DNA of 64,000 nt from Beroe forskalii (lineage: Eukaryota; Ctenophora; Nuda; Beroida; Beroidae): positions 310,001 through 374,000 of the forward strand of contig WFMF01000086.1 of the NCBI GenBank assembly GCA_011033025.1, written 5' to 3'. Every line of letters begins with the position of its first letter. The stretch's first letter is position 1. The notes under the pieces are model-generated. The model worked only from the letters and a program-made list of their open reading frames with translations, did no database searches and had not been told where the DNA came from. The translations under genes were made by a program, and so were the position numbers. Below are positions 1 to 57,300 of this stretch, piece by piece.

Positions 1-6723
<6,723 letters not shown>

Positions 6724-12899: not shown

Positions 12900-15410
12900 T
12901 GGGGAATTCAGGATACGTTTCTTCTATTTTGCAGGTTTTTATTCTATCAGGTTGTTCTTTTCATTCATACTATAATTTACGTATAATTTATACAGATAAA
13001 ATTTAAGTTCGCCATTAAATTATTATGTTTATCAGTAAATGTTAATTTATTAAATTGTATTATGTATTTTTCAATGTTAATGTCTATATAATATGGGCTG
13101 GAAGATCCAGCATAATGTTTATTGAATCATGGGCACTGTTTTGTGAAATGAGTGTTGATGTCAAATCAATTTTTTTTTAATCTTTATCTTTATCTTTGTG
13201 TATGGGACTCTGTGTCATTATCATTGATTAGAATGGGAAAGCTGTGTGTATGGGCACTGTGTCTATGTGTTTGGGATTCGTGTTAGGATGCACATGCAGA
13301 TTAGGAAAAGTAGTTCTGTTACTATGGTAACATGTGAAGTGTGTGAATTTCATTTGTTGCACTGTTTACTTTGTTACACAACTCACCTGAACCTTTTATT
13401 CCAAATTGATGATTAAAAATAAATCTATTTTCCTAAAAAATTCCTTTCCTTCCTTTCTTTGGTTCTGATTCGATTTTTTTGATGCAGTAAAAGGGTTTTC
13501 ATAAATTTCAATTGCAATGGTTGAAATTTGGGAACGAGGTGCTAGGAAGCAGCGCTGAGTGGGCCATGTATTAGCAGGCCCAATTAATTATAATTCAGAT
13601 GTGTTTTCATATAAACACATAATCACCCCCGGAACGCGAGGTACCGCAGCTGCTAGTACTTTGTGCGCAGTTTTGGGAAACGCAGCAATTTTGCAACGAT
13701 ATTGCCCCATTTCATGGACTAAACCAGATAGAGTGATCTGAAGATGGCCAATTGATAGAGCAGCACAGGAGTTCAGTGGTGTAAAGATCATTGGAATAGG
13801 CTTATGTCAGAGTTATGATCAATAACACCGCAGCAGAAAACAAGGTTTTCTCCAGTAGCGCCCACGCTCAGCGATTCACTGTGAAGCCTTCAGGAACATG
13901 ATATCAAAATCTATGATCAACCTACACTGCAGAATTTTATCCTCTATCGATTCCTGAAGGTCCCAAGTCTCTATCTTCAAAATGTGGGATTTCTATAAAG
14001 AAAAACCCGAGAGGGTGTAAAAAGGACATTACTGTCTACTTAAAAGAGGTACCGCAGCACTGTTACGTGACAACCAATGCCAGCGTGTGCTGTGTGTGGT
14101 GGATGCGAGAGAGCAGACAAATTTGTCCCCTGTTCGCTTCTGTGTGTTTGCTCTCAAAGCGTGTGTTTGGCTTGTTACCGCTTTCAATTAGGCAATGAAT
14201 GGAGGTTTATTTGAGAAAGTTCTATAATGAGATGGGTGTTGACCCCTGTTGGTCACGTGCGACCTATTGGCCTGGCATAAAAGAGGAACCAGACACCAAT
14301 CAATCCACCGACATCTCAACTGTCCAACCTTTCATGAAATCAATTTGTGACTGCTTGGCAACTGGTGGTGGCTTCAGATGGGCTTATGGGGTAATGGGGT
14401 ATAATGGAGTCTACTCTCTGGTGCGGTGGTTGTTGGGAATTACTAGGATAGTAGGATAGTGAAAGGTCCTTCGTCAACCTGAGGAAGATTCAAAGATAAT
14501 CATGCTAAGGGGGCTATGCTTCTGCAGTTCACTTGGTGTCCTCTAGGACACCTATACTAATCAAGAGAGTGGACGATGGTGGACGAAATACCCGTCAGAT
14601 GAAACTCTGTTTGAAGTTTAGCAAGATGTTTAATGAAAAGTGATAGCTGATTGAATTAATAATGATGAAGAGAGAAATATAATAAATGGCAGTATGCGTG
14701 TGAGGACAAGAAATGTGAAGCAGCATGACTGGAGAAATAGAATCAGAAGGAGCAGTATTCGGAGAGCAGTTTGAGGGATGACGAACAGAGGCGGATCCCT
14801 GACTGGTGTGGAAACATGCTCGTACAAACTCTTGTGACGTACAGTCGGATAGCTCGGTGAACACAGACTGTGGACGTCTGTGTTGGATTGATTATTTTGA
14901 ATCTTTATTGGGGATTATGATTTAGTCGATAAACTTTTAGGGCTTCTTATGTTAATATTGAAGTTTTAATTTATTTTGGGTGAACACTTAGAATATTGAT
15001 TTAGGACTTGAATTATAACCCTACTGTGGTCTTAATTTCATCTGTTTTGGAAGGGTAGTGTAGGCAGTGGCCCATTACTCTATTTTATTTAACGTGCTGT
15101 AGCTGTAGGAAGAGTAAGGCTAAAAAGTAACACAGCACCGTTCTTAGATTTGTGAATGTTATTATTATGACTAGCGTTAGATTCTTGGCCGTTAGTTTAA
15201 CGTAGGATTTTAGTCTGTGCTATGAGGTGAAAGGCTTTGTCAGGATTTCCCTATTGTCATGAACCAGCCACTTGAAGATTTACTATGATGATTGTTTCCC
15301 TTGGTCTATTCTCAATGTGAAGTGGTAACCCTGATGTCCCTTCTCCTTCACCCTTACCTCTGATCCTGACCCCCTACCCCTGTACCAACACGGCTGGACT
15401 GCGTGTTGCG
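12900..15410. other. region without recognised genes
   Basis: Mostly AT-rich intergenic or intronic DNA. A pyrimidine-rich CCTT tract lies near 13440. A plus frame at 14199-14459 (86 codons) resembles no family I know. Nothing here can be assigned. Confidence 0.3.
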
Positions 15411-15638
15411 TACACTAAGCGGTTACATGTCGAAGTGGTGACCGTATACCGCAACTTACATGGTCGAGGCGACAGCCGAGACTGTGTAAGTTGGATAATG
15501 GACGAGGCGTGCCGAGTTCATTATCGAAGGTATACGGTCACAGCTGAGATCATGGAACTGGATTATACCCCGACCGGAAACAGCTGGGACCTACTATTCT
15601 CTGACCAAACAACAGTATTTCTTCCCACTCGGGTCTGA
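15411..15638 (+). repeat. 228-bp structured segment, copy 1
   Basis: Nearly identical to 19951-20133 plus 24064-24108: one internal difference (A/C at about 15534) and one near the left edge. It contains nested perfect inverted repeats. The outer stem is GTGACCGTATACC (15438-15450) with 15529-15541. Inner stem A is CAACTTACA (15452-15460) with 15485-15493. Inner stem B is GATAATGGAC (15494-15503) with 15516-15525 (one G-T). Together they describe a compact three-way junction with linkers G, none, and GAA. The segment also stays open in one frame to TGA at 15636-15638. Function unknown. Confidence 0.7.
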
Positions 15639-15847
15639 TACTTCGGCTGGTCCGTCATAACTGTTCCGAAGCACGAGCAGATTTCCCTGAAAGAGATTTC
15701 AGTAGTCATTGGCTTATTTGAGAAGTTCAGGGAACAAATTTAGCTGCCATTGCCTTACCTGAGACAGTTCTTTTTACACCCGTCATGAAATCCGAAAAAC
15801 ATACATACATGGAATTTCGCGCGCTGGGCGCGCGCGTTTGTAATACG

Positions 15848-18800
15848 GTCACTGCTGAGTTCATGAATCCCCAAAATTGCCAACAAATTGCCAACATGTT
15901 ACAAAAACGTGACAAGGCAAAATAACGAGTTTCTTGGTACTTTAACTAGTTTGAATCAGATCATATGATAGTATAACGTTATTAGACACTGTCAGAGCCG
16001 TTTCAGAGTCGGTGATGACTCAGTGATGACATGATGACATCATGATGTCTCGAAAATTATTTTTTTCAAAAACTTCAAAATTTGTTCGAAATTGCTTGAA
16101 AACCGTTTAGTTAGTCACAATATGTTACAAAAACATGATTTTGAGTGAAAATTTTCGATCTCGTCGGGAAAAATCGCGATATTGACATAGCCTGAAAATA
16201 CGGCAAAAAAACCAAAAAAACGGTCATCACAGACGAAAAATCAACATTTTTGTTCAACTGGCGATTGATATCTTCTAGTTACCATTCAACTGACGTGCCT
16301 GCAAAATTTGGTGCTTCTAGCTACTCCAAAAGTCGAGATATGACACTTGTCACCATTTTCATGACCTCAGAGTATCCCCAAAATTGCCAACATTTGTAAC
16401 AAAATGTGACAAAATTGAAATCCGTGTTTCTGGCCCATTTCTGGTGTTCTGATGGGTTTAAATGATCAAATACGGTAGTAGGAGGTCATTAGACACTGTC
16501 AGAGCCGTTTCAGAGTCGGTGATGACTCAGTGATGACATGATGACATCATGATGTCTCGAAAATTATTTTTTCAAAAACTTCAAAATTTGTTCGAAATTG
16601 CTTGAAAACCGTTTAGTTAGTCACAATATGTTACAAAAACATGATTTTGAGTGAAAATTTTCGATCTCGTCGGTAAAAATCGCGATATTGACCATAGCCT
16701 GAAAATACGGCAAAAAACCAAAAATCGGTCATCACAGACGAAAAATCAACATTTTTGTTCAACTGGCGATTGATATCTTCTAGTTACCATTCAACTGACG
16801 TGCCTGCAAAATTTGGTGCTTCTAGCTACTCCAAAAGTCGAGATATGACACTTGTCACCATTTTCATGACCTCAGAGTATCCCCAAAATTGCCAACATTT
16901 GTAACAAAATGTGACAAAATTGAAATCCGTGTTTCTGGCCCATTTCTGGTGTTCTGATGGGTTTAGATGATCAAATACGGTAGTAGGAGGTCATTAGACA
17001 CTGTCAGAGCCGTTTCAGAGTCGGTGATGACTCAGTGATGACATGATGACATCATGATGTCTCGAAAAATTTTTTTCAAAAACTTCAAAATTTGTTCGAA
17101 ATTGCTTGAAAACCGTTTAGTTAGTCACAATATGTTACAAAAACATGATTTTGAGTCAAAATTTTCGATCTCGTCGGGAAAAATCGCGATATTGACATAG
17201 CCTGAAAATACGGCAAAAAATCGGTCATCACAGACGAAAAATCAACATTTTTGTTCAACTGGCGATTGATATCTTCTAGTTACCATTCAACTGACGTGCC
17301 TGCAAAATTTGGTGCTTCTAGCTACTCCAAAAGTCGAGATATGACACTTGTCACCATTTTCATGACCTCAGAGTATCCCCAAAATTGCCAACATTTGTAA
17401 CAAAATGTGACAAAATTGAAATCCGTGTTTCTGGCCCATTTCTGGTGTTCTGATGGGTTTAGATGATCAAATACGGTAGTAGGAGGTCATTAGACACTGT
17501 CAGAGCCGTTTCAGAGTCGGTGATGACTCAGTGATGACATGATGACATCATGATGTCTCGAAAAAATTTTTTCAAAACTTCAAAATTTGTTCGAAATTGC
17601 TTGAAAACCGTTTAGTTAGTCACAATATGTTACAAAAACATGATTTTGAGTGAAAATTTTCGATCTCGTCGGGAAAAATCGCGATATTGACATAGCCTGA
17701 AAATACGGCAAAAACCAAAAAATCGGTCATCACAGACGAAAAATCAACATTTTTGTTCAACTGGCGATTGATATCTTCTAGTTACCATTCAACTGACGTG
17801 CCTGCAAAATTTGGTGCTTCTAGCTACTCCAAAAGTCGAGATATGACACTTGTCACCATTTTCATGACCTCAGAGTATCCCCAAAATTGCCAACATTTGT
17901 AACAAAATGTGACAAAATTGAAATCCGTGTTTCTGGCCCATTTCTGGTGTTCTGATGGGTTTAGATGATCAAATACGGTAGTAGGAGGTCATTAGACACT
18001 GTCAGAGCCGTTTCAGAGTCGGTGATGACTCAGTGATGACATGATGACATCATGATGTCTCGAAAAATTTTTTTTCAAAAACTTCAAAATTTGTTCGAAA
18101 TTGCTTGAAAACCGTTTAGTTAGTCACAATATGTTACAAAAACATGATTTTGAGTGAAAATTTTCGATCTCGTCGGGAAAAATCATGTTTTTGTAACATA
18201 TTGTGACTAACTAAACGGTTTTCAAGCAATTTCGAACAAATTTTGAAGTTGTTGAAAAATCTTTTTTTTGAGACATCATGATGTCATCATGTCATCACTG
18301 AGTCATCACCGACTCTGAAACAGCTCTGAAAGTGTCTAATGACCTACTACTACCGTATTTGATCATCTAAACCCATCAGAACACCAGAAATGGGCCAGAA
18401 ACACGGATTTCAATTTTGTCACATTTTGTTACAAATGTTGGCAATTTTGGGGATACTCTGAATGACAAGTTCATTTTTTCGAAAAAATGGTGAAATTGTG
18501 ACATGAAATAACGATGTCATAAAAATGTTGAAAATTTTTCTGTCAAAATGACCAGGTTTTTTTGAATGGTCGAATGGTTTGAAGATATCAATCGCCAGTT
18601 GAAAAAAAAACATTGATTTTTCGTCTCCAAATGACCGAAAATTTTAATGGTACTTTTATGTTGCATCTAAACCCATGCGGATTTCAATTTTGCGGACATT
18701 TTGTTACAAATGTTGGCAATTTTCGATGCTAAGTTAATGAAAATTTTCAGGAATATTACGACATCATGATGTTTTGGAAAATTTTTCTAGAATCGCCATT

Positions 18801-19656
18801 TTGAACAAAAATGGCGAATGACCGAATTTTGGTTTTTGCCGTATTTTCCAAAATCATCAAATCATGTTTTGTAACATATTGTGACTAACTAAACGGTTTT
18901 CAAGCAATTTCGAACAAATTTTGAAGTTTTTGAAAAAAAATTTCGAGACATCATGATGTCATCATGTCATCACTGAGTCATCACCGACTCTGAAACGGCT
19001 CTGACAGTCTAATGACCTCCTACTATTTGATACCGTATTTGATCATCTAAACCCATCAGAACACCAGAAATGGGCCAGAAACACGGATTTCAATTTTGTC
19101 ACATTTTGTTACAAATGTTGGCAATTTTGGGGATACTCTGAGTTCATGAAAATGGTGACAAGTGTCATATCTCGACTTTTGGAGTAGCTAGAAGCACCAA
19201 ATTTTGCAGGCACGTCAGTTGAATGGTAACTAGAAGATATCAATCGCCAGTTGAACAAAAATGTTGATTTTTCGTCTGTGATGACCGAATTTTTGGTTTT
19301 TTGCCGTATTTTCAGGCTATGTCAATTTGGCGATTTTTCCCGACGAGACGGAAAATTTTCACTCAAAATCATGTTTTTGTAACATACTGTGACTAACTTA
19401 ACGGTTTTCAAGCAATTTCGAACAAATTTTGAAGTTTTTGAAAAAAAAATTTCGAGACATCATGATGTCATCATGTCATCACTGAGTCATCACCGACTCT
19501 GAAACGGCTCTGACAGTGTCTAATGACCTCCTACTACCGTATTTGATCATCTAAACCCATCAGAACACCAGAAATGGGCCAGAAACACGGATTTCAATTT
19601 TGTCACATTTTGTTACAAATGTTGGCAATTTTGGGGATTCATCTACTGTCACTGCT
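15848..19656. mobile_element. foldback-like element with about 500-bp subrepeats and a 9-bp target duplication
   Basis: The body (15857-19647) has four and a half direct tandem units in the left arm; the marker ATTAGACACTGTCAGAGCC starts at 15981, 16488, 16993, 17489 and 17991. At about 18187 the sequence turns into the reverse complement of the same unit, which runs to 19647 with a divergent centre. The outer ends match in inverted orientation: ATGAATCCCCAAAATTGCC after AGT at the left, its complement before ACT at the right. The 9-bp word GTCACTGCT stands directly outside both ends (15848-15856 and 19648-19656). Long inverted arms built of tandem subrepeats with 9-bp duplications are the hallmark of foldback elements. 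No transposase is present. Confidence 0.7.
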
Positions 19657-19950
19657 ATTCAAATTACTTTCTTTGATTTAAAGCCAATTTAGGAAGACCC
19701 TTTTGAAACAAAAATTGCCAAATTGTGACAAAAATGCCAAGAAAGTGATGGGAAGTTATTGAAAAGTAATGAGATAGCGATTGAGGGGTTTTGTTTGTGT
19801 GCTATTTGCTTAGCACCTTTGAAACCTGAATTTAAAAACGTAAAAAACGATGCAACTATTCATTCATATTAAAAACTCAGAAAGTGAACCGGGAAGAAAG
19901 TGTTGAGTACCCGTCACGAATACTATATAAACTGTTGAAAATTTAAAGTG

Positions 19951-20133
19951 TATACTAAGCGGTTACATGTCGAAGTGGTGACCGTATACCGCAACTTACA
20001 TGGTCGAGGCGACAGCCGAGACTGTGTAAGTTGGATAATGGACGAGGCGTGCCGAGTTCATTATCGAAGGTATCCGGTCACAGCTGAGATCATGGAACTG
20101 GATTATACCCCGACCGGAAACAGCTGGGACCTA
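19951..20133 (+). repeat. 228-bp structured segment, copy 2, left piece
   Basis: It matches 15411-15593 base for base apart from about two changes, then is interrupted by a LINE at 20134. The remainder of the copy resumes at 24064. The internal change breaks one pair of the 13-bp outer stem. Confidence 0.75.
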
Positions 20134-23100
20134 ATCTAGATGAATGCAACAAAAATCTTTTTAATATAAAAGACTTCCAATCTACATACCAATCTAAAAT
20201 GAGTGGTAAACATAAGGGAAGTGGTCTCGCAATTTATGTTAGGAATCACTTCTCTTTAGTGAATTAAGCATTTACAATCAGTGCTCTCCCTAACCTTGAA
20301 TCACTATTTATATCAATAAACAACACTTGTGACCAAAAACCCTATTACAATAGGGCGTACTGTATAGACCCCAAGTGGGAATGAACAAATTTTCATATCT
20401 GAACTGAATGTACTACTCCAGAAACTACCTCTTAATAATGTATACATTTGTGGAGACTTCAATATAGATCTACTAAAAAATTCGAAGTCTAAATTCGAAG
20501 ACATTCTATATAGTAATGGTTTTGCACCACTTATCTCAATAGCCACACATCACAAACCTGGATGCATACCATCATGTATTGATAATATAATAACAAACTC
20601 TACTGACTCTGTTACCACTTCTGGTATTTGTGATATTATATCAGGTCACCATTGTCCTGTTTTCTGTACAACATTAATTGAATTGAATTCATGTAGCGAT
20701 AAGTCTAGTAGTTTACCAAAGTATGATTTTAATGAAAGTAATATGATAAAATTTGAAAAATGAATTCACAAAGATTCTTACAGAGCAAAAAATTACTTTG
20801 TAGGTGCTATTTTTGATGAAAAAATTTTGATGAGTTACTCAATAACATCAGCAAACTTTGTTGAAAGTTGTTTTTTATTATGGATGAAAAGCTCTTGAAA
20901 AGTAAATGTAACAGAATCACCAACCCATGGATCACCTCTGGAATCATTGCATCTATAGCCAAGAAGGACTACCTCTACAACCTTTGGAGGCAGTCCATGA
21001 AAAAAAACTTAAATCTAAGGAAGGTGACCCAATACTTTATGATAAATATAAGGAATACAGGAAGGCACTTAAAAATACAATTAGTTCTGCTAAGAAGATG
21101 CATAAACAGAAGAAATTTGACAAGGCTAATGGAAATAGTGAGAGACTTGGAAAATTATAAATGAAAATACGGGAAACAGAAAGGCAAATAAGGCCATCCT
21201 TTATCATAGATGGCCATGTAATTGAAGAGAAAGAAAGGCGAGCCATAGCTAATGGATTCAACAAATATTTTACATCTATAGCTTCTAAACTTAATGAATG
21301 TGACGATGGTTTGCCCATAGAACCTATTCTAACTTCAAGGAATACCTCAAGGGGTTCTGTAGAGGCAAGTATATTTCTAGAACCATGCACTGCAGATGAA
21401 ATTAATGAAATTATTGTTGAATTTTCAGCCAACAAAGCCAGTGATATACCAGTCAAAGCTCTAAAATCTATTTCAAGCATTACCTCCCCCATATTAGAAA
21501 ACTTCTTTTTAATGTATTTATGTCTGTAGGGGTTTTTCCAAAATCTTAAAAACAGGGATAGTCAGTCCAGTCTATAAAAGAAGACCCTCAAAAATTTGAT
21601 AATTATAGACCTATCTCTACACTTCCAATCTTTTAGTAAGATATTTGAGAAAATTCTGTATAGGCGTATTTATAGCTTTCTCATCACTAAAAAATATACT
21701 ATATGAAAAACAATTTGGGTTTCACAAGGATCACTCAACTTCACATGCAATAAACTACTCTGTAAAGTATATAACTGATGAAATTGAACAAAAGAAACAT
21801 GTTATAGGTATATTCCTTGACTTAAGCAAAGCATTTGACACAATATGCCACAAAAACTTGTTCATAAACTTAATCACTATGGAATCCGTGGAAATTGTCT
21901 TAAATTAATAACTAGCTATCTATCAACTCGTCAACAAATCACCAAATTTGATGGGGTCCAATCTGAAGCAGACCCCATTCTTTTTGGTGTTCCTCAAGGA
22001 TCTGTAACTTGGTCCACTATTATTTCTAATCTATATAAATGACATTATCCACTCAGATGAAGGCAAATTCGTTATATTTGCAGATGACACAAATGTATTC
22101 ATTACAGCTGATAACCAAAAAGGAAGCTTATAAGCTGGCTAATAAGGTCCTTAAATCAATTGACATACATGAAAGCTAATCAACTCCATATCAACCTTAG
22201 TAAATGTGCTTATATGTACTTTAGACCCAATTTTAATCATAATGAGCGCCTGTCCTGTGCTCGATGTCTATATACAACCATGACCTAACCCTATCTTTAC
22301 ACAATCAGAAGATCAAAAAGTTGATAAAATACGATTTCTAGGTGTTATTATTGATGATAAACTGAATTGGGATAGTCAAATAGAACATCTTGAAAATAAA
22401 TCCTATCTACTATTGTACTTGTAAAGCGTGTAAAGAAATTCATCCCTCCTCACACTTCTCCAAAATTTACCAATCACTATTCTTACCACACCTTACCTAT
22501 GGATTATCTTGCTGGGGAGGTGTTTACCAGTCCAAGCTTCAAAAACTGTTTAATCTCCAGAAGCGCTGTATACGTATCCTATTTGGTGAAACTTATTCAT
22601 TTGACCATCCTGAGTATTATGCTTCCTGTGCTAGAACTAAAACATATGTAGAACACACGTCCCTTTAAAACCTATGATCTTGAACATACTAAAACCATTA
22701 TTTAATAAGCATGGGTTACTCACCCTTCAGAATATCTATATACCTTAAGGACCTTGATGGAGATTCTAAAAGCATTGAAGTACCAGTCTCCATCTCCAAT
22801 CTATGACAACCTTAAACTCTGCCCCAGAACTAATAACTTTAAACTCCTTATTCCAAAGCATAACCTTGATATATCTAAGAATAACTTTTTTGTACATCCT
22901 GTTAATAGTTGGAATTTATACATCACAAAAACTTTTTAGACCCCCTGATCTGACGGATTTAGCAGAACCCAATAACCTTATGATTATCGTCCCTGGTTCC
23001 AAAAAGAATTCAGACCTTACAATACCAATTGAAACATTTAAAAATCGCTTAGAACATATACTCTTAGAAAAACAAAAGTCTGGAATAGATAGTATTTGGA

Positions 23101-24063
23101 GTAGGGAAAATATTTCATGATTAACAGAACTGTTGTGTTTTAAACTTTATGAACTTTTCCCCTTTTTATGAATTTAATGAAATAAACGAAATTTTCTTAA
23201 CACAGCAGCCTTTTGGCCTGGTATGATTTTGATAAATTAAAATCAAGCTAACTGAAATTTTTAGTGTATGCATCTCCTTCATCTGTTAAAATTACCCCTG
23301 CCCCGAATTTTACCCCTTCCTTGCTCTGTCCCTTACTTTGGTACCCACTTATGCCTCTATGCCTCATTAAGATATAAATATCAAGCAAAAAACCTTTACT
23401 AATTTCCTTGTTCATCTCCATGAATTTTTCCTTGCTTAATTTTATTCATCCATGATCCCACCCACTGTCCCAGGGATGTGATTAAGCTGACAAGGCGAGA
23501 GCATCCTTTAGCTGCAGTGAAGTGTGTCAACCAAAAGTTGAAACTATCAAAATAATATACTGATTTGAGACTGCCTGAATAATTGGATTAATTAAGCCAT
23601 CAGGGCATCTCTTGCATGCTGAATAAGTATTATAGACACCTAGGCCTAGACTAGAATTATTCGATTAAGAAGTCAAGATCTGAGATCACTAATCCTACCT
23701 CAAGCCTGAAAACACCTACTCTTAATCTTTTTATTGTTGTAATTCTCCCACAAAACCATCCCCAGATTAATACCAGATTAATCTTAACCCTGCCTTTACT
23801 TAGCAAATCAACAACTTGATTATTCAGTTAATCTGCAAGGCTGAGTCCTTTCAGTACTATTTCTCTCTATCTGTGCTCATCTATATAAAATCCATATTAA
23901 TAAGAGATCTTAAAATTTGTTCAAAAAAGGGTGCCATAGACAATTATGTTCGAGATTTTACAGTGATATGATTATACTCGATTTATTTATTGATGTATTT
24001 TTAAATAAAGAAATTCTGTTAGCTACAAATGATAACTAATTGTTTTACTAACTAATTGTTTTA
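20134..24063 (+). mobile_element. decayed, 5'-truncated jockey/CR1-like LINE
   Basis: The borders are fixed by the split 228-bp segment. The element starts inside the endonuclease part of ORF2 and ends with a short repeated tail (ACTAATTGTTTT twice, about 24030-24062), as LINEs of this group do. A target duplication, if any, is only TA. The stretch from 23121 to the end (about 940 bp) has no coding frame and would be the 3' UTR. Confidence 0.8.
20140..23120 (+). pseudogene. LINE ORF2 remnant (endonuclease and reverse transcriptase)
   Basis: Pieces in several frames line up in ORF2 order: GSGLAIYVRNHFSL and YICGDFNIDLL (endonuclease, 20220-20470), IDNIITNSTD (about 20580), ANKASDIPVKAL (about 21430), FLDLSKAFDTICHKNL (about 21810), YGIRGNCLKLITSYLSTRQQ (about 21875), GVPQGSV (about 21990), FADDTNVFITADNQK (about 22075) and LPHLTYGLSCWGG (about 22485). 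There are many frame breaks. It belongs to the same family as the fragment at 31590-32600, which shares the NxFITA..K...AYxxANKxL pattern. Confidence 0.8.
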
Positions 24064-24108
24064 CTATTCTCTGACCAAACAACAGTATTTCTTCCCACTC
24101 GGGTCTGA
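24064..24108 (+). repeat. 228-bp structured segment, copy 2, right piece
   Basis: It matches 15594-15638 (CTATTCTCTGACC to GGGTCTGA). The two pieces of copy 2 are separated by exactly one LINE insertion. Confidence 0.75.
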
Positions 24109-24180
24109 AGACCCTCGTCGGGATTCAATGCTTAAGTAGATTTTTGAGTGCTCCTTTATAAAATCAAATTTCATTTAAAG

Positions 24181-25165
24181 TCATGCGATGCCATCGTCTC
24201 TTAGTTTGACGTTATCCGATGACATGTTCTTGTAGGGTTTGATGGTGCTCAGGTCGCAACACTCGGCTACGACCAGGGTATTGAACATCAGTTTGCAACA
24301 ATTGATGACGGAATGAAGAACAGTCATGCTCTCCAGAGGGGCATTGGTTGCTCGCAAAGTTCATCCTCTTAGCGCCGCTGCAACCAATCAACCGCTAGCG
24401 TAAAAAGCCGAAAATATACGTACTCCAACTTTTTCGCCTCCGTTCACCAACGTCATACATCAAATAATGAATTACCAAAAACTTCCTTCTGTCACTCCCC
24501 AATATAATAGTTCTCAAGAGTCCAGTCACACCTGTAACAATGTGCCGCAGACTGCCCACTGATAAGACCTCTCAATTTGCCATCAATCATACATTCTTAA
24601 TATTAAATGAAACGTTCGCTTGATAGTCAGTGATATCAACCACCGTATTTGGTTGCTCTTTCGTGGTACCTCTCGAAAAGAGCTTTACACAGTTCGTAAG
24701 TTTCGTCCTGAAGTACCATACACAAAGGCTTAACAGAGAAATTTGAGTTCGATATGGGATTTCAAACACTGTTTTATGTATTGCTTCAGTCTTGTCGACA
24801 ATCTTCACTACAGCAAATCCCATGGTAACCATCTTATTCCACTTCTCCTTTTATTTCAATCTGATTACCTGCCCCGTCAAGTCCATCCTTGAGAGTTAAA
24901 CTCAATCACCTTCATAGAAGGTCTGAGGATTCCAACTTCATGGAATTGCTTGACTGTAACCCTAAGATAGTCCATAGCAATCTGGTACGAAGACACCCTA
25001 GGAAGCTAGTTTTTCCTTGATGATTTCATACATGTCTGGTACTACTTTAACTACACGCTTCATTTTTTCCCTGTCGTAAAATTCTTCTTGGAGGGATTAC
25101 TGACCCCACACTTCTCTTGAGGAAGTTCTGAGGAATCTCAGTTCTCTTCATTTCAGAGTCCGTAT
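24181..25165 (-). pseudogene. RAG1-like transposase remnant (ProtoRAG/RAG1L type)
   Basis: Minus-strand pieces in shifting frames line up in the order of the RAG1 core. They are: a helical region (REKMKRVVKVVPDMYEIIK, about 25085-25030; ASRVSSYQIAMDYLRV-like, about 25000); GLDGAGNQ (about 24880), matching the site of the first catalytic Asp (RAG1 has CDGMGD); VFE, then PISNSNFSVKPLCMVLQDE (24770-24700), against FEEPKPNSELCCKPLCLML in RAG1; MIDGKLRGLISGQSAAHCYRCD (24590-24530; key residues IDGK and the CxxC), against the RAG1 CTLCD knuckle; and PLESMTVLHSVIN (about 24340), against the region around the second catalytic Asp, which appears replaced here. A stop lies at 24181. The breaks I could follow are single-base shifts. 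RAG1L proteins are DDE transposases with RSS-like ends; no RAG2-like frame or element ends were found. A Transib relative is the alternative; the KPLC motif favours RAG1L. Confidence 0.6.
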
Positions 25166-25940
25166 CTAGAACAAATGGATGCATTAAATGATTGATGAAT
25201 TGATTAAATGATGGATGAGCAATGAATAAAACGATTGAATTAATTCATGATGCTGGCTTCATGAGACATATAGAAGCTGGTCTGACCAAGTGAATAGACA
25301 TTAAATACTTGTTTTACCAGAGCTTTTTGAACCCTCCAATTGGTGGACCTGGAGGAATTTCGTCTTTGATCTGTCAGTACTTTGGTATTCTTAGGTTCAT
25401 TTCCAATTATAGCCGATGCTGTTACACGTCAAGTATCGATAAATAGCTGCAAATGCTGCTTTTAAAGTTTGGACGAAAACTGTCATGAATTGAGTCTACC
25501 CAGAACGGACTCAAAATAATAATAATATTGATTATGAGATAATCATGGTATTGGTATTATAAAGTTAGTTTCAGTTGCTGCAGTGCAGTATTTTCTGTTA
25601 AAAAGGTCAGACTTTCTCCCAACGAACTAAGCCATCTATGAATAGAACTGCTTAATAAGACTGAAGAATTTTAAAGAGAAAGAAATCTAACATAACAAAA
25701 ACAGATTAATCAAATCGAGGAAGTCATTATCTCTGTTTCTTTTTTCAACTGAAATATATTTTTTTCAATATATAAGCCATCAAAAGCATTAACTCATTAA
25801 AGCAACAGCGAAAATCTACCAGGAATTATAGATAGTAAATTTAATGTTTAAAAGACTTGAAAAGGCCTTTTTATGTTTCTATTTATCTTCCAGTAAACAT
25901 ATGTTGTTAGTGAAATCCTTGCAGCTGTAAGTTACCATCG

Positions 25941-27848
25941 TCACAATTTTAGTATAGTGTTGATGATGCCAGTAACAAACGCTATCAGATACGCTATGAA
26001 AGTAAGATATGTGTTTTTCCTGTTTGTTTTGTATATTTTTGGAATTGTTTTTGTTTTTCTGTTAATATTGGAAATTAAATCTTTCTCTCGCACCATGATG
26101 TAGGTAATAGGTGTACTTAATAACACAAGCACAAAGAGTAACAGGGATTCAGGGGTGGAAAAGGCACCTGAATATATGTCACAACTCACAATGATTGAAT
26201 AATATTGTATTTTACATCCATTGCAATGATAAAGATCATGATTCATGTTAACTTAGAATAAACATTCGTGGACATGAGTAGAATGTGTAAATGTACATCA
26301 CAGGAATATAACAGAAAAATACCAATGCTTAGTAATTCAGTTTTCACACCCACAAATGTATCTTAATAGCAATTTATGGCAATTTAATAGAGTTGAGACA
26401 ATACACCACAACAACAACCATGATTAAAACTGTGATGATGACCCATGTTAAAGTAAGCAAAATAGTATATTACTTTGAAAGTTACATTTGTCACTCCCTT
26501 TCAAGTTTGCTCAAAAAGAAGAGCAAACCTGACACCCTTATGCCAAGATTCAAATGGCTCAAACATTATGTAGAAGTGAGTTTGAAGATAGAACACGCAG
26601 TACACCACTGTTGCTTACAATATTATTATCTGCCTCAACCAAGGTGTTTAAAGTCAAGCTCAGCTGACTGAAGATATGAAATGCCAAACCAGTTCAGAGA
26701 ATGAGGGTTCTAACACAAGTGTAAGAAACAGTTGAAGACAATCTTCCCGACCGATCTCCTCTGAAGATGGCTACTGTTGTTGTAAGCAACAAAGTGATTC
26801 TTACCACATTTTTAGAATCCTGCCAAACAGACACTGTTTATTAGATGGGGGAAAACAGGGGCAATTTTGATAAACACGATTCTCGCTGTAAAGGGGTAGT
26901 AAAAGCACACACATGACCTGGTCAAAGGGAGATGACAATAAAGGTATTTCCATGTTGTATCAGTTTTGCCGGATATATTGTCAGCTCATACCACTATGCA
27001 CTGTTGATGAAAATTTATCAGAAAAACAAAACATTGTTGAATGATGAATCTATATATTATGACTATAGGTAGGTACAGTCTGCAATATACCGTTTAGATT
27101 CTACAGTGATAATTATAGCGTGCAATCATTTTTCAACTAAATATGTGTGTAATACTAATCATACGATTGGTCAATATTACCTTTTCTTGCATATCACTGT
27201 TTGAAATTTATAGTTCAATACAATTGCAAACATTGAAGAAAAACAAAATTTTTAAATTATCAACTGAAATTCCGACAGTTAAAACCCAATTTAACACTCT
27301 ATACTTATATTATATTTCACACATATTGTATTGGCGCGGCAACCTGTTGTGCCCACGTGACGTCATCATGCTGAGTTCTATAAACCGCAATAATTCGGCC
27401 TAATTGAGATAGAGGCATGGGGATTTCACCATTGTATAACATGCAACGTGAGAAGTGATAAAATCATAACCATTTTAATTTTCTTAAAAGTCAATTCTAT
27501 AGTGAACTACCCCTTTAAAAAAAACGGTTTCAGATACATCTTCATCTGTATCTGCAAATAATGATGAATTTAGGTATTAATTAACACAACATTGAATGAG
27601 ATTTATATTCCATTATTTCAATACAATGACAGCTTATTATTTTCTGTTACCAATTTTATGAAAGAGCATCTCAGTTGTGCTGAGGCTAGCTACCAAAGGG
27701 AGTGATAAAACTCTAATCAAAGTATCTTGGACATTTCAATGAATATGTTATGCAAGCATTAGGTAGATGATACCTGTAGTTGTGGTGCCTTGGATTCATC
27801 AGAATACTCAGGTCTGATTCCAATAAAATCTGAGTCTGTGCTGCTCAT
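25941..27848 (-). CDS. small membrane protein gene, first and last exons only
   Basis: A start exon at 27848-27774 encodes 25 residues (MSSTDSDFIGIRPEYSDESK, then APQLQ) and ends at CAG/GTATCA in phase 0. A last exon at 26167-25941 follows a TATATTCAG acceptor and encodes two hydrophobic segments around a basic loop: LLLFVLVLLSTPITYIMV, REKDLISNINRKTK and YLTFIAYLIAFVTGIINTIL. Linking them into one gene is inference; the middle exon or exons were not found. The last exon faintly recalls the C-terminus of CD225/dispanin proteins (basic loop, second membrane helix), but this is weak. The two exons could also belong to different genes. Confidence 0.35.
26889..27518. mobile_element. probable MITE
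   Basis: The ends are short inverted repeats: TAAAGGGGTAGT at the left, ACTACCCCTTTAA at the right. They enclose about 630 bp of AT-rich non-coding DNA with one CG-rich patch at 27330-27370. The target duplication is unclear. Confidence 0.45.
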
Positions 27849-27934
27849 GATCTATTAAATTTAGAATCATAGTCAGTGGGTTGCAGGATGAAGAGTGTAC
27901 TTATAGGTAATATGTATAATTTATAAGATCAAGG

Positions 27935-29140
27935 AGGCTCTCTCTCAGGATCATAGAGTCTTCCCCTAGATCAAAGACAATCTCCCAGATTAAGGTGACC
28001 TCCCAACATCAGGGACACTATCTCAGCATCAAGGAGACTCCTCTCAGGATCATGGGACTTCTTCCTTTGGGATCAGAGAGACTTTCTCAGGATCAGGAGA
28101 CTCTTCAGGATCATAAGGGGGTTTTCCCCTAGGATCAAGTTTAGGATCAAAGAGACTCTCTCAGGTTTGGGGGGGCTCTCCCCGGGCCCAAAGGGCTCTC
28201 CCGGGAAAAAACTTTCCCAGGATAAAGGGCCCCCCAGGATCAAGGTGACTCCCCAAACCAAGGGAAAATTCTCAGCATAAAGGGGGCTCTCAGGACCCGG
28301 AGGTTTTTTTCCCGGATCGGGGGAGACTCCCCCGGACCCTAAGTCTTCCCTGGCCCAAGGGGCTTTCTAAGTCTTCCCCCTAGGATAAAGGGGACTCTCT
28401 GGGGGTTAGGGGGGGTTTTTCTGGGATAAAAGGGGGTTTTCCCCGGGGGGCCCGGGGGAGACTCTCTCAGGATCAGGGGGGAACTCTCTCAGGTTTCAAA
28501 AAGGACTCTCCCCGGGAAAAAAGAGATTTTCTCCCCAGGATTTTAAGGGGGGCTACCCCAAGGATAAAAGGGCAATCTCCCAGGATTGGGGGGCTCCCCC
28601 AACATCGGGGGAGACTATCTCCCCCCAACATAAAAGGAGATTTCCCCAGGATCATATATTCCTTCCCTTGGGATCGGGGAGCCCTCTCCCCCAGGATCAG
28701 GAGACTCTCCCCAGTATCAAAAATCTGGGTTTCTTTTCCGGGAAAAAAGGAATGTCCCAGTTTAAAGGATACCTTGGCCTCCTTTTTGGGGGAATAGGGG
28801 GGCCCGATCTCAGCATCAAGCCACCCGGGGGTTTCTCTTGGGACCCATAGGCCCTTTAGCATCAGGGGACACTCCCCAGGATAAAGGGAGATTTTCTCGG
28901 GTAAAGGGGAGACTCTTTTTAAAAAAGATAAAAGGAAATTTCAGGATCAGGAAAATTTTTGCAAGATCTAGGATGTTTGCCCAAAAAAAGGTTCCCTGGG
29001 GTTTTAATTAACTGTTTTAAGGTGTGGCCTCCTCTTTCAGGAAATAGGGGGGGCGATCTCCCTAAAGGAGACTCTTTTTGACCCGGGGTTTTTTGGCACC
29101 CCAGGGAAAACTCTCAGGATCAAGGAGACTCTTCTTGGAT
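27935..29140. repeat. degenerate minisatellite (about 30-bp unit, CAGGATCAAGGAGACTCTCT-like)
   Basis: Dozens of variants of CAGGATCA..GAGACTCTC follow each other. From about 28140 the copies carry inflated runs of G, C, A and T that look like consensus errors rather than biology. The open frames across it are by-products of the repeat. Confidence 0.75.
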
Positions 29141-29956: not shown

Positions 29957-30304
29957 CTAAATTTTTTTCTGAAATTTAATATGATTCAACCCATTAATAT
30001 TCTTAAAAACTTTTAAAAAAATTTCAATAAGGTCACCACTTTTAAAGTCCCTTTTAGCCAATTTTGTGAGCTGCAGGCATCTCAAAATTTTCTCCAAAAG
30101 GGATGGGAAATTGGTCCCCTCAATCATACCCCCTAAAAACGCCTTTGGACACTTTAAACTAAGGGGTTGGGGACCAAATTTTCCCTGCCCCTGGAGATGG
30201 ATTCCCCAGCTGAACTCCATTCTAGAAAATTTTGGCCTTATCAAAACTTTTATATACAGACCTAGGATCCCAAAAAAAAGCATCTTGTCAGAATGTTTTC
30301 CCAA
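29957..30304 (-). pseudogene. LINE ORF2 C-terminal fragment
   Basis: A 115-codon minus frame ends with LTKLAKRDFKSGDLIEIF and KVFKNINGLNHIKF. This resembles the region after the reverse transcriptase in many invertebrate LINEs (R.RGDLIE.FKI.NGI). The surrounding consensus is homopolymer-rich and unreliable. Confidence 0.5.
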
Positions 30305-30482
30305 ATTTTACCAAACCTTTATAATCCAAAAAAATAAAATTTAAAAAAAGATTTCATTGTCTGTTTCACCAATTTGCAATGTTGTTTTCCCGACAGATAA
30401 CAGGCTTTTAAAATTTGAAAAAAAAAATGTTTTTTTTCCCAAAAAAAATTTTAAAAATAAAACATAAAATTTCCAAAATTTT

Positions 30483-30582
30483 NNNNNNNNNNNNNNNNNN
30501 NNNNNNNNNNNNNNNNNNNNNNNNNNNNNNNNNNNNNNNNNNNNNNNNNNNNNNNNNNNNNNNNNNNNNNNNNNNNNNNNNN
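30483..30582. other. assembly gap (100 N)
   Basis: Exactly 100 N, the conventional size for a gap of unknown length. The left flank (about 29640-30482) is rich in suspicious homopolymers. Frames reported across it have no meaning. Confidence 0.99.
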
Positions 30583-42135: not shown

Positions 42136-42636
42136 GTGCATCCTATTTCACACCCTATGGTGAATAGAATTAGTCAGACAAAGTTTTGCATTTGTGGGCC
42201 TTTTACCTACTTATTTAACACATAGCAAAAGCCATCTACCTATAGGTTTATTTTACACATTGAACAAAAAAGAATGTCTATACATTTTTGTTACATACAT
42301 TTGAATTATGTATTTAAACATTTCCTTTATGTGATCTTAATAAGTGGATCTTTTCTGAAAGATTTAGTAATAACCATTTCATGATTATAATGAAAATGAT
42401 GCTTTATGATATTCGTGTTTCAAAATTTATTTGTTGACTGTAGAAATAAATTTTCATAATGATTTATTAATTTACTGATCTAAATCACGATAATTATACA
42501 TCTTTTTACCATAAGATAACTTTGCCCAACACTGAAGGATGGCACCATGGCTTTGTTACGAAAATGAAATCTAAGTTGTAAATTTAGTCAATTGGAACAT
42601 CATCAATACATCAGAAATATAGCACTTCATTTGAAA

Positions 42637-44166
42637 ATGAACTCAACAATGATAACCCTAAAAAAGATGGATGCAAATGTAAGTACCCCTCGTGGTAAAA
42701 CGGGAAAATTGGAAATGTTTGGTTCAACTGGTCTTGGCTTTGGTAGCATGGGAACCTGTGTTTATAAAGGGCTGTTTGAAAAGTCTACTGAAGTTGCTAT
42801 AAAGACTATTCCCAGGCATGTTTTCAAAGGTCTTAATGGGAGCTTAGTTGAAGCGAATGAGATTGGAGAAGTGAAAATACTGAAAAAGTTTAATCATCCA
42901 AATTTGGTGAAATATTTCATTTTTGAATATGATGATTTGTACATTTATATTGCACTTGAATTATGCCAAGGAACATTAGTTGACTTTGTTGAAAACAACA
43001 CTGATCATGCAAATTATGATGGCAAAAAATTTATACTTCACGGAATTATGCAAGGGCTTGATGAGTTACACAATCTCAACATAGTTCATGGTGATCTGAA
43101 ACCTCAAAATATCCTTCTTAAAGGTATACCTAAGACACAAGATGGTATGCTGCAAAAAGCTGTGATTTCTGATTTTGGACTCAGTCTTGAAATTGAGCCA
43201 GGAAAACGTAGCAGAACTGTCACTGATGGTAAAATTGGCACTCAAGGATGGCGAGCTAAAGAGCTTGTTGTAGCTATTGAACATGCTGAAAATTCATCAA
43301 AGAAGTCAAATACAGAATCTGATATGGAAGATTTTGATGAAGTTGGTAAGGTGAAATGTGCTAAGGCTACTGATATTTTTGCTGTTGGTTGTGTTATGCA
43401 ATATGTTATGAGTGATGGGACAAGAAACATCCACCCTTTTGGAGAGGATGCTTTCAGAGACAGAAATATCAAAGACGAGTGTCGATGGTCGTACCTATCA
43501 ATTAAAAGATATAAAGTACTTGATGAAATTTTAGCAGACATGCTAATTCAGCTCTGTGTAACTGCAAATCGTGAACTTCGTCCAGATACCAAGGAAATTA
43601 ACAAGCATCCTTTTTTCTGGGATTCAGTAGCTAGATACAGATTTATAGAACAGATTTCGAATGATGTTCATTTTATTGACAAAAGTTTCAAGAAAAAATT
43701 GGAGGAGAAATGGACTGAGTATCATCCAAATCCAATCTTTCTCAAGCCTAAGTGGTTCATGGGCATTATCAAAAAAGAAAAAAAATATTATTTTGATAAC
43801 AAATCTTTGATCAGCTTTGTTAAGCTAATCCGTAACACAAAGCAACATTATCCAGAGAAAAGAGAAGCATGTCCTGAATTTGTTAAGCAACTTAATGATG
43901 GTACTGAGGATGACATAGTCCGATATTTCTTGAATAATATTGTACATGTTCTTCCTGTTCTTTATGCTTGTTTCTACAAGTGCCCAGAAAACAGAAAAAA
44001 TGGATACCAAAGCTATTTTGAGTGGCAGGGATTACATGATGACAGATATAATGCTTCATGTGAGCTACTTGACAAAATATTTATACCTCAATCAAAACGA
44101 GGTAATTCCATTGGAGGAGAAAAACGACTTCGTACCAGAACTACCAGTGGCAACCACAAAGATTGA
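42637..44166 (+). CDS. kinase-KEN protein 1 (IRE1/RNase L-like kinase and RNase module), intronless
   Basis: The frame encodes 509 residues from ATG 42637; the frame is open from about 42568 but has no earlier ATG. The kinase fold spans residues about 30-322: Gly loop GSTGLGFGSMG, ATP Lys in VAIKTI (residue 56), catalytic loop VHGDLKPQN (HGD instead of HRD, 151-153), DFG at 179-181, GTQGW and DIFAVGC. The KEN RNase domain follows (323-465): KHPFFW, FVKLIRNTKQHY and YFLNNIVHVLPVLY. The RN-x3-H pattern (399-404) of IRE1/RNase L nuclease sites is kept. The position of the catalytic Tyr reads Phe, with Tyr one residue before. There is no signal peptide, membrane helix, lumenal domain or ankyrin repeat, so a soluble protein is expected. 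AT-rich codon use. AATAAA at 44275. Confidence 0.88.
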   Translation: MNSTMITLKKMDANVSTPRGKTGKLEMFGSTGLGFGSMGTCVYKGLFEKSTEVAIKTIPRHVFKGLNGSLVEANEIGEVKILKKFNHPNLVKYFIFEYDDLYIYIALELCQGTLVDFVENNTDHANYDGKKFILHGIMQGLDELHNLNIVHGDLKPQNILLKGIPKTQDGMLQKAVISDFGLSLEIEPGKRSRTVTDGKIGTQGWRAKELVVAIEHAENSSKKSNTESDMEDFDEVGKVKCAKATDIFAVGCVMQYVMSDGTRNIHPFGEDAFRDRNIKDECRWSYLSIKRYKVLDEILADMLIQLCVTANRELRPDTKEINKHPFFWDSVARYRFIEQISNDVHFIDKSFKKKLEEKWTEYHPNPIFLKPKWFMGIIKKEKKYYFDNKSLISFVKLIRNTKQHYPEKREACPEFVKQLNDGTEDDIVRYFLNNIVHVLPVLYACFYKCPENRKNGYQSYFEWQGLHDDRYNASCELLDKIFIPQSKRGNSIGGEKRLRTRTTSGNHKD

Positions 44167-54300: not shown

Positions 54301-57300
54301 AAGATATCAATCGCCAGTTGAACAAAAATGTTGATTTTTCGTCTGTGATGACCGATTTTTTGGTTTTTTGCCGTATTTTCAGGCTATGTCAATATTGCGA
54401 TTTTTCCCGACGAGATCGAAAATTTTCACTCAAAATCATGTTTTTGTAACATATTGTGACTAACTAAACGGTTTTCAAGCAATTTCGAACAAATTTTGAA
54501 GTTTTTGAAAAAAAATTTTTTCGAGACATCATGATGTCATGATGTCATCACTGAGTCATCACCGACTCTGAAACGGCTCTGACAGTGTCTAATGACCTCC
54601 TACTACCGTACTTGATCATCTAAACCCATCAGAACACCAGAAATGGGCCAGAAACACGGATTTCAATTTTGTCACATTTTGTTACAAATGTTGGCAATTC
54701 CGGGGATTCATCTACTGTATGCGTAACGCGCAGCGACATTTCATTTTACAAAGGTCCCAGGTCACGTGACCAATCAAAAGCCGCGGCGCGCGGCGCGTGC
54801 GGCGAATAGCCCCGACCTCCTAAATTTAGCCCCTTCATATCCTTTTCTCAAAAAAGAATTAAGGAACATGATGATTTATCAAATTAATAATACTGTCATT
54901 TGCACGTAACTGGCTGGCTACCGACCGTGGTTCGTAGTGATAAACCTGAAATGTTCCGTCTAAAATACTCAGACTGCTGGCAGGAACGTATTGGTACTTG
55001 GTAGCATTGAGAAAGGTCAAAATCGCAAGTTTCGTAATAAATCATTACTTTGCGGGAGCAATCATACTCCCTAAGCTTTATCTCTCGATTTTAATGGCTG
55101 CTGTGAAGGACGTACAGCGTAAGGACGGTGTGGCAGTGCACACAGCAGACAAGAGACTAGAGGTGGGAAGTAAGGTTGATGTGGTCGTGGATTGGAAGAG
55201 ACGTTACGACCACATGCAACAACACACCGGTACGTAATGAACCTGCTAAGTGAATATTGGGTTTCAATCTGGAAATAGTTTCAATTTGATTTACATTGAA
55301 CTCTTCAATTGCTTATAATTTCAGGACAGCATTTGTTGAGTGCCATTGCCGAACAAGCGCCTTATCACTACAATACCGTGTCATGGAACTTAGGTCAGCA
55401 GACTTACATTTTGACACTTTCAACACAGAAATTTGATAAAATCCTTCGAATTCTATTTTGATTAGAGATTACTGTTGCATGATTGGTGATATCTAAGGCG
55501 TAATATTGCCACTGCAGTGACGTGTCATTATTTGTCAGGAGCTACGGTATCGCACGTGGAACTGAACACTCCCAAAATAACTGAGGATGTGAAAATGGAG
55601 ATCGAACGGAAGGTTAATAGGTTAGGGTGATCCATTTCACTTTACTTGACTTTTAAATATACAGTGTGTAGTTATGCAATATTAGCGATATTGTGGCAAA
55701 TTGCATCATCACTTATCGGGCATTTCCTCAAGATGAGTAAACGAAGTTTGCTTTATGTGAGTGAAGGAGTGAGGTCCCGTGTATTATCACTGATTCACGA
55801 GTTGAATTGATTGATCTGCATGTGTACAATTAATAAATTTTCAAGTCCTGGGATTCATGAATTTTTTCTGCTCTAATTGCAGCTACAATGTCAAATTTCC
55901 TTCCACAGGTATATTTCGCGACATTTCACAGCTCATAAATTCTAAATCGCTTTAATTTTGCGGGGGTGAGTCAATGACAGCCATTTGTTACGAAAAAAAC
56001 CACATACCTAAATCATTACGAATGTCAAAAGTTTTCTCACTTCGATTTGGAAACGTTTGGAAATATTAAACTTAAATTCTGCAATTTTCTTCGAATTAAC
56101 AGACTTGAAAGAAGTATCACTTTGCCTGAAGAAGTCATGATCAGTAAACATTGCGTATGTGTAATATTATCATATATTCACATATTTGTTTTATTTGTAT
56201 CAACTGACTCCATACAGTCGCAACAGTCAGCTGTTCGTGTGTCTTGACAGTCAAAACCTCCCCGCATCTGATCACTCACTGTACGTACAACAAAATCTGA
56301 GCTTTTTATTTCTTACTGTGTCTCCTACTGCTCTGAGTGTTAGACTCGCTAGCAACTTCCAGTTTACTGTCATGGAGATTGTGGGTTCTGCCCGGAAACT
56401 ACGGTTTGATCGTAAAGACATCCTGGGGGAGGGAAGTAAAGGGACGTGTGTTTACAAGGGAGCCTTCGAAAACAACATCCCCGTGGCTATCAAGAGGATG
56501 GTGTACACCATTACCACGGACTGGAATGAAGTGATGAAGGAAGTGAAGACTCTCCAGAAGATGGATCATCCCAATGTCATCAGATACCGTCTCTTTGACA
56601 AGGACAGGGACTTCGTCTACATTGCCCTGGACTTGTGCGACATGTCGCTCATAGACTTCCTCAAGAAGTCAGTGGTGGATACCCGGTACAGCAGTGGGAG
56701 TGATGAGCGGATAAAGTTCAAGATATCCATCCTCAAGGATATCCTCAACGGCCTGGGATATCTCCACAAGATGGGGGTTATCCACCGGGATCTGAAGCCA
56801 CAGAACGTGCTGGTGAAGCACAGTGTGGCTGCTGAGTTCAGAGTGGTGGCTGTGATCTCCGACTTTGGGCTGAGTCTGGAGATCCCGGAGGGCAAAGTCA
56901 CGTGACAGCCACAGAGGGCGGCTCCAAGGGGTGGACAGCGCGGGAAATGCTGGACAACCACCCTGCTAACCGGTACAGCAAGGGCAGAAAGAAGTTCAAG
57001 AAGAGCATGGACGTCTTCTCCTTCGGTTGCATTGCTCAGATGGTCCTCCACTCCGCATCCGACCCCACCAATAGGTGGGCACACCCCTTTGGGGACGAGA
57101 AGACTAGAGAGAGGAACATCTACCTAGGCAACAGGGTCGCATACCTCACCCGACCCAATGTGGCTATGAACTGCCATGACGTTCTGGCAGATCTTCTGAT
57201 TGGAATGTGCGTTGGCATGGAGCCAAAGGAGCGTCCAACCACTGAGGATATCCTGAACTTCCCTCTCTTCTGGAATTTTGCCTATGGCATCCACTTCTTG

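Follow-up and report, generated by a model that had tools for sequence, protein, structure and literature searches.

A 64,000-nucleotide stretch of the ctenophore Beroe forskalii, hereafter the window, carries on its minus strand a broken copy of a RAG1/Transib-superfamily gene. We consider it probable that this copy is a dead, 3′-truncated DDE recombinase gene, derived from a Subgroup-I-like Transib-type ancestor and spread as a passenger. Its core pieces occupy positions 24181–25100 in three alternating frames. The KPLC block, the CxxC zinc pair, and two of the three catalytic motifs (the first and second Asp) survive in them, with frames disrupted; the truncation has removed the C-terminal domain and with it the zinc histidines and the catalytic Glu.

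A broken recombinase gene copy in the window

The window was compared, as six-frame pieces with stops read as X, with C614, an intron-containing paralog from the same genome that is not a near copy. Four matches were obtained (E 9.5e-29, 2.6e-7, 3e-7, and 4.7e-5), which between them cover each of the minus-strand frames; the same comparison with three control windows, shuffled in two-base blocks, yielded zero matches. The peptide pieces that an earlier note on this DNA had quoted in RAG1 order from different minus-strand frames are all present in that order (Table 1). The membership of the RAG1 superfamily proposed there is borne out by the C614 match and by profile matches to RAG1, RAG1L, and the solved structure 6pqn. 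The invertebrate host is a ctenophore, in keeping with its mitochondrial traits: contig C1134 (13,339 bp) bears a COX1 gene that is read with code table 4, with AGR as Arg in conserved motifs, ARAGORN (bacterial setting) predicted no tRNA in its first 2.8 kb, and the single ATP6 match (three candidates scored) is on the 422-kb contig C176. Ctenophores share the absence of tRNAs and of ATP6/ATP8 from the mitochondrial genome (PMC6991124). Pfam RAG1 showed no match for the window pieces. The chain 6pqn is labeled a DNA-mediated transposase by the search tool, and we take it to be HzTransib, a Transib transposase.

Alignments to 6pqn and vertebrate RAG1 place the first Asp in DGAGN and the second in (I/L)DGK, just before CxxC. 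The second catalytic position had previously been sought near VLHSVIN, a placement that these alignments overturn, and a reading of the window copy as devoid of the second Asp was rejected on the same grounds. We also rejected a processed retrocopy, because the upstream exon has a GTAAGT donor at a boundary matching that of C614; the main exon of the window copy lacks introns that are present in C614.

Table 1 Features of the gene copy, its repeat unit, and the insertions within it
Feature	Window positions	Strand	Remarks
Far 3′ tail	15410–15856		Repeat copy 1 (228-bp repeat) at 15410–15638
Second insertion into tail	15857–19643		Bounded by a 13-bp near-repeat, 12/13 identical
Continuation of 3′ tail	19644–20133		First 184 bp of repeat copy 2 (228-bp repeat) at 19950–20133
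LINE-type insertion splitting the element, broken ORF (endonuclease- and RT-like pieces)	20134–24061	+	
Stop codon and 3′ tail common to truncated copies	24062–24183	−	Last 47 bp of repeat copy 2 (228-bp repeat) at 24062–24108
Stop codon of window copy	24181–24183	−	
VLHSVINCC...LRDDGIA block	24184–24360	−	Truncation point of the subfamily; C300 continues in frame beyond DDGI
Second catalytic Asp (IDGK) and CxxC zinc pair (CYRCD)	24495–24596	−	From structure/profile alignments
KPLCMVLQDE block	24639–24761	−	Aligned with RAG1 KPLCLMLADE
First catalytic Asp, DGLDGAGNQ	24837–24905	−	
Main exon, N-terminal part (KMKRVVKVVPDMYEII..., MDYLRVTVKQFHEVGILRPSMKVIEF)	24880–25096	−	
Upstream intron/exon region	25107–25830	−	Versus L037: ~91% of paired bases agree, ~69% of columns counting gaps
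Upstream exon, decayed remnant (ALDVLASAINLIDPKYQEY in other copies)	25322–25432	−	Edges approximate
5′ part of repeat unit	27514–28137	−	93.6–95.7% identity to other copies; runs into ‘GATCCTGAGAGAGTCTCC’ minisatellite
Match to 5′ end region of other copies (77–86%)	30257–30468	−	Directly before 100-N assembly gap 30483–30582; weak assignment

The copy lies in a split repeat unit

Judged by the other copies in the genome, window positions 15410–15856, 19644–20133, 24062–25830, and 27514–28137 are pieces of one unit. The span of 24181–25165 given in the earlier note thus holds for the core pieces but not for its end at 25165, since DNA homology covers 24062–25830 and the unit resumes at 27514–28137. 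Within the LINE-type insertion at 20134–24061, the RT-like piece was matched at E 1.3e-7 and the endonuclease-like piece at E 0.0027, which is under the cut-off; two further pieces had no match.

The tail holds two copies of a hairpin-rich 228-bp repeat, the second of which is split by the LINE into 19950–20133 and 24062–24108. The gene had been described as directly following this second copy, which is accurate for the adjoining 47 bp, but not for the remainder that the insertion has split off. A genome search for the repeat gave 1017 first-look candidates, of which 40 were scored, and 40 of the 41 matches listed were 97–100% identical. Rfam gave no match at gathering score anywhere in the window, the 228-bp segment included. 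As a separate high-copy repeat of its own, the segment was rejected as the end of a RAG1-like transposon.

The window contains several other features. A LINE endonuclease/reverse-transcriptase frame of 914 aa without a stop lies at 3148–5892, and genes combining a protein kinase with a Ribonuclease 2-5A domain (Pfam), as in IRE1/RNase L, lie at 42571–44166 and 56165–57834. Between 46000 and 52000, many short repeated ORFs with one motif (e.g. KMVQKWQKVDFEDVPTNRFS..ILQGCSFHHCLSETIK) form a tandem-like array.

Most aligned copies have a truncation in common

The 216-Mb assembly was searched with the joined pieces of the window; 42 candidates were scored, and 39 matches at E ≤ 1 were grouped into ~16 places: ten in C469, two in C447, and one each in C835, C300, C614, and the window. 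All but one of the ten C469 copies cluster within ~280 kb (C469:682000-969999), in both orientations. Two of them do not differ at all across 842 bp of tail and 3′ end. Compared with one C469 copy, the other copies mostly show 96–100% DNA identity, dropping locally to 91% in L041 and L043; the window copy shows 84% over 1.9 kb, and C300 shows 96% over one 413-bp stretch and 73–84% over most of the remainder.

An open frame of 297 codons in L001 (C469) ends in ...LRDDGIA and a stop, as in the window. Twelve of the 13 solved-structure matches of this frame at E ≤ 10 were RAG1 (best E 0.0074), 6pqn not being among them, and Pfam RAG1 matched it at E 0.0069, under the cut-off; intact truncated ORFs scored 15.0 and 13.6 bits against Pfam RAG1, for which the cut-off is 25 bits. 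The same stop and non-coding tail recur in 10 of 11 aligned 3′ ends, that of the window included. The alignment comprised 11 of the 16 places, leaving out C469:18 kb, C469:686 kb, C447:26 kb, C835 (end missing in the fetched copy), and C614 (too divergent). The window copy and its sisters, with this stop and tail in common, thus stem from a copy already without the last third of the enzyme.

The clade of the window copy has the N-terminal half at ~16 places; the C-terminal domain, which bears the zinc histidines and the catalytic Glu, was found at two of them only, C300 and C614. A genome search with the 214 C-terminal residues of C300 returned 13 matches, three in C300, four in C614, and two weak ones each in C247, C202, and C166; this C-terminal third was the one query on which the copy count of the sister clade is based. 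As a genome-wide probe, Pfam RAG1 gave zero matches, its control being likewise silent, and no related loci were confirmed among 600 and 104 pattern stretches from viral contigs and prokaryote genome contigs, respectively.

The intact ancestor was probably a Transib-type transposase that nicked DNA, made hairpins, and joined ends at inverted repeats, and it would belong to the Transib side nearest to RAG1L, ‘Subgroup I’-like. The truncated version, in turn, would have spread as a passenger within a larger repeat and via other machinery, because an enzyme lacking the third catalytic residue is not expected to work by itself.

Decay and possible assembly error

The earlier note had called the copy decayed or badly sequenced. 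Decay is confirmed by the broken frames and the truncation, and bad sequencing is possible, given the counts of small indels and substitutions. Over 869 aligned coding bases, the window copy differs from L037 by 20 substitutions (10/5/5 by codon position) and 18 indels, 16 of which break the frame. Twelve regions were compared with L037, counting the better copy where a region holds two and excluding C300 and C614. Many indels (6–18) occur in the window, L041, L044, L043, and L042, and few (0–3) in L033, L034, L035, L036, L038, L039, and L040, which have 3–12 substitutions; the substitution counts of indel-rich and indel-poor regions overlap. Indels that do not scale with substitutions are odd for age alone, so local assembly error is a possible contributor.

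The frame breaks might then be mainly assembly errors and the real copy a recent truncated ORF like its sisters, a plausible account that we nevertheless lean against. The ratios of indels to substitutions in the window (18/20), L041 (17/23), L044 (10/10), L043 (7/5), and L042 (6/10) favor it when set against those in the low-indel regions L034 (1/12), L033 (1/9), and L038 (0/10), as does the identity of 24121–24320 to L037 (200/200), and multi-mapping repeats resist polishing. On the other hand, positions 25107–25850 align to L037 with 624 matches, 64 mismatches, and 212 gap columns in 900, the element bears later insertions, and the 914-aa LINE and 531-aa kinase ORFs of the window are unbroken. 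The long upstream gaps and the later insertions therefore indicate that the window copy is old in part.

Fuller, intron-rich relatives

C614 keeps D, D, and E in a gene of ten or more exons, whose GT-AG borders were identified by eye. C300 continues in frame through IGHNNTGG..GN.AK.FF to FNITIHQVLFHSW, with two zinc-type histidines, and beyond an intron placed by eye to GLGAWSEDALE, the catalytic Glu motif, and a stop, but its first half is decayed. Identity between L032 (C300) and L037 is mosaic, with 97.8% over 412 bp of the D2 exon and 77% over the D1 half, a pattern that suggests gene conversion or recombination among copies.

Two further multi-exon RAG1/Transib-like genes were found in C202 (G000:C202:53800-60000; L059, L056) and C247 (G000:C247:2145800-2152000; L055, L058). 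Both contain LDGK, CTLC, H-x4-H across an exon joint, and SEE; the first Asp (MDGASSHQ) is seen in C202, and C247 is cut at that point by the fetched edge. D-D-E and CxxC/H-x4-H are thus present in order and complete in C614 and C202, and in C247 except for the first Asp; C300 and C166 are partial relatives. Across 273 codons, the C202 and C247 proteins are 72% identical, and their coding sequences differ at 57/36/152 first/second/third codon positions. The NG86 method yielded a dN of 0.18 with dS saturated and without a value. These figures come from seven gap-free stretches chosen by hand, and the choice of conserved stretches favors a purifying-selection signal. Both genes are apparently under purifying selection, although a long-lived transposon lineage would look alike.

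Such genes invite the view that a domesticated, intron-rich family of host genes, rather than a transposon, gave rise to the window copy as a pseudogene. The exon number and retained catalytic triad of C614, the codon-position pattern and dN of the C202/C247 pair, and the few loci with a C-terminal domain all point that way, but we regard it as somewhat unlikely. The truncated subfamily is multicopy and recent, as the pair identical over 842 bp attests, and hence mobile-element-like, and introns are also present in the RAG1L genes of transposons, known or presumed (PMC4411706, PMC8355894). It is likewise doubtful, and put forward here tentatively, that C202, C247, and C614, with the partial C300 and C166, might be domesticated, RAG2-free RAG1-type recombinases under host selection, of which the window copy would be a recently amplified truncated by-product.

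Element ends and RAG2

Weak tests for transposon ends, made on the window and on copies such as L041 and L038, found no inverted repeats, CAC ends, or 5-bp target duplications. The inverted-repeat comparison of one pair, the 5′ side of L041 and the 3′ side of L038, gave matches of 9–10 bp only. A scan for RSS-type sequences gave one match versus 1.05 expected, distant from the copy at 63063–63090. The 5′ end that three copies have in common beyond the minisatellite is AT-rich, not CAC. Pfam RAG2 had no match in the genome, but its control was equally silent; 3–20 kb were fetched around the fuller genes. The neighboring RAG2L, RSS-like ends, and 5-bp duplications that the earlier note had proposed to look for did not turn up in these tests.

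Placement between Transib and RAG1L

Over the whole core, the family is nearer to 6pqn than to RAG1 or RAG1L. The C614 core matched 6pqn at E 2.6e-7 and vertebrate RAG1 at E 0.1, and the preference persisted in profile A2, built from C614 and L001 (6pqn 1.3e-9, RAG1 3.6e-4), and in A3, to which C300 was added (6pqn 2.2e-14, RAG1 4.9e-5, RAG1L 1e-4). Profile A4, with five rows from C614, C469, and C300 of the window clade and C202 and C247 of the sister clade, matched 6pqn at 6.9e-19, the best vertebrate RAG1 at 3.2e-6, and lancelet RAG1L at 3.9e-6, over profile positions 22–390 of 390. At E ≤ 1, 17 of its 20 solved-structure matches were 6pqn, RAG1, or RAG1L, and the other three stood at E 0.43 or worse. 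For the C-half of C300 alone, 6pqn was the sole match below E 0.9. C202 alone matched 6pqn at 2.1e-8 and RAG1L at 0.19, with unrelated chains between them from 0.011 upward. Pfam RAG1 showed no match for the C614 core, the C300 half, or C202.

The N-terminal half alone favors RAG1. Profile A1, restricted to it, had RAG1 as its best match (1.2e-4) and lancelet RAG1L 6b40 at 0.0055, all 14 matches at E ≤ 10 being RAG1 or RAG1L. The best match over the core in profiles with the C-terminal domain, the Transib transposase 6pqn, is absent from the N-half searches. The earlier note had named the copy RAG1L/ProtoRAG, to be abandoned if Transib gave the best hits and the KPLC and CxxC columns went unsupported. 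The outcome is divided: 6pqn is the best whole-core solved-structure match and RAG1L identity is not established, yet both columns are supported and the N-half matches RAG1 and RAG1L alone.

Between CxxC and LH lie 70 residues in the family and 65 in C202, where an exon joint intervenes, against 29 in 6pqn and 63 in RAG1. By length alone, the family thus has the RAG2-binding alpha11–alpha12 insert of the zinc domain, a trait of RAG1L and Subgroup I Transibs. This RAG2-binding stretch is kept in RAG1L and Subgroup I and lost in Subgroup II, Subgroup I being the nearer of the two to RAG1L (PMC9435367). The same study lists six Transib-like proteins in ctenophores, whose subgroup its text does not state (PMC9435367). 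A CTT1 motif is expected of Subgroup I Transibs and invertebrate RAG1L. Strict and loose patterns of the CTT1 tail Cx2Cx3GHx4C were absent from the six frames of L046, L031, L045, L037, L033, L034, and L032, and the C300 gene seems to end without it. RAGL pairs are described in molluscs, a nemertean, and cnidarians (PMC7204232), and the main text of a paper on the M. leidyi immune repertoire mentions neither RAG1 nor Transib (PMC11797021).

Like Transib (6pqn), the fuller relatives have the core order DGA-N, PL block, (I/L)DGK, CxxC, LH, G-N-A-K-F, H-x4-H, and SE, and with Subgroup I they have the long zinc-domain insert in common, in a phylum that has Transib-like proteins (PMC9435367). Unlike Transib, full-length copies have many introns, inverted repeats and CTT1 were not found, and the window copy lacks the C-terminal third. 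The family has the KPLC block, the CxxC zinc pair, and the insert length in common with RAG1L (ProtoRAG, lancelet, 6b40) and vertebrate RAG1. An NBD-like exon in C300 (PKPVKHEFSSLAPRSKRKRM) presumably resembles RAG1 as well.

A true RAG1L remnant would be a RAGL transposon that belonged with RAG1 rather than Transib and has lost its RAG2L partner and inverted repeats; it would account for the KPLC block, the long zinc-domain insert, the A1 matches, and the GAW-SE motif of C300, which resembles RAG1 GAWASEGNE. We judge it improbable, as 6pqn scores far higher once the C-terminal domain is included and is the only match of the C300 C-half below E 0.9, no CTT1 motif or RAG2L neighbor was found (the Pfam RAG2 control being silent), and the whole-core profile score of RAG1L and RAG1 is lower. 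The placement is based on profile scores, one spacing, and the identification of 6pqn as a Transib. Together with the subgroup traits of PMC9435367, the 6pqn-favoring profiles and the long zinc insert put the family firmly in the RAG1/Transib superfamily, and point to Subgroup-I-like Transibs as its best placement. The window copy is a correctly spotted fossil that was somewhat over-named as RAG1L.

Implications for the RAG1/Transib superfamily

Ctenophores are regarded as the sister lineage of all other animals. A common ancestry is accepted for RAG1 and Transib-type transposases, and whether Transib or RAGL came first is still argued (PMC7204232, PMC9435367). With Transib-like C-terminal and RAG1-like N-terminal features, the ctenophore family would provide a deep animal outgroup for testing this order. 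The intron-rich genes, some of which appear to be under selection and have no evident RAG2 partner, raise the question of host use of RAG1-type enzymes in other lines. The window copy itself is a truncated, inactive marker, whose interest comes from the ctenophore lineage and from the fuller relatives elsewhere in the genome.
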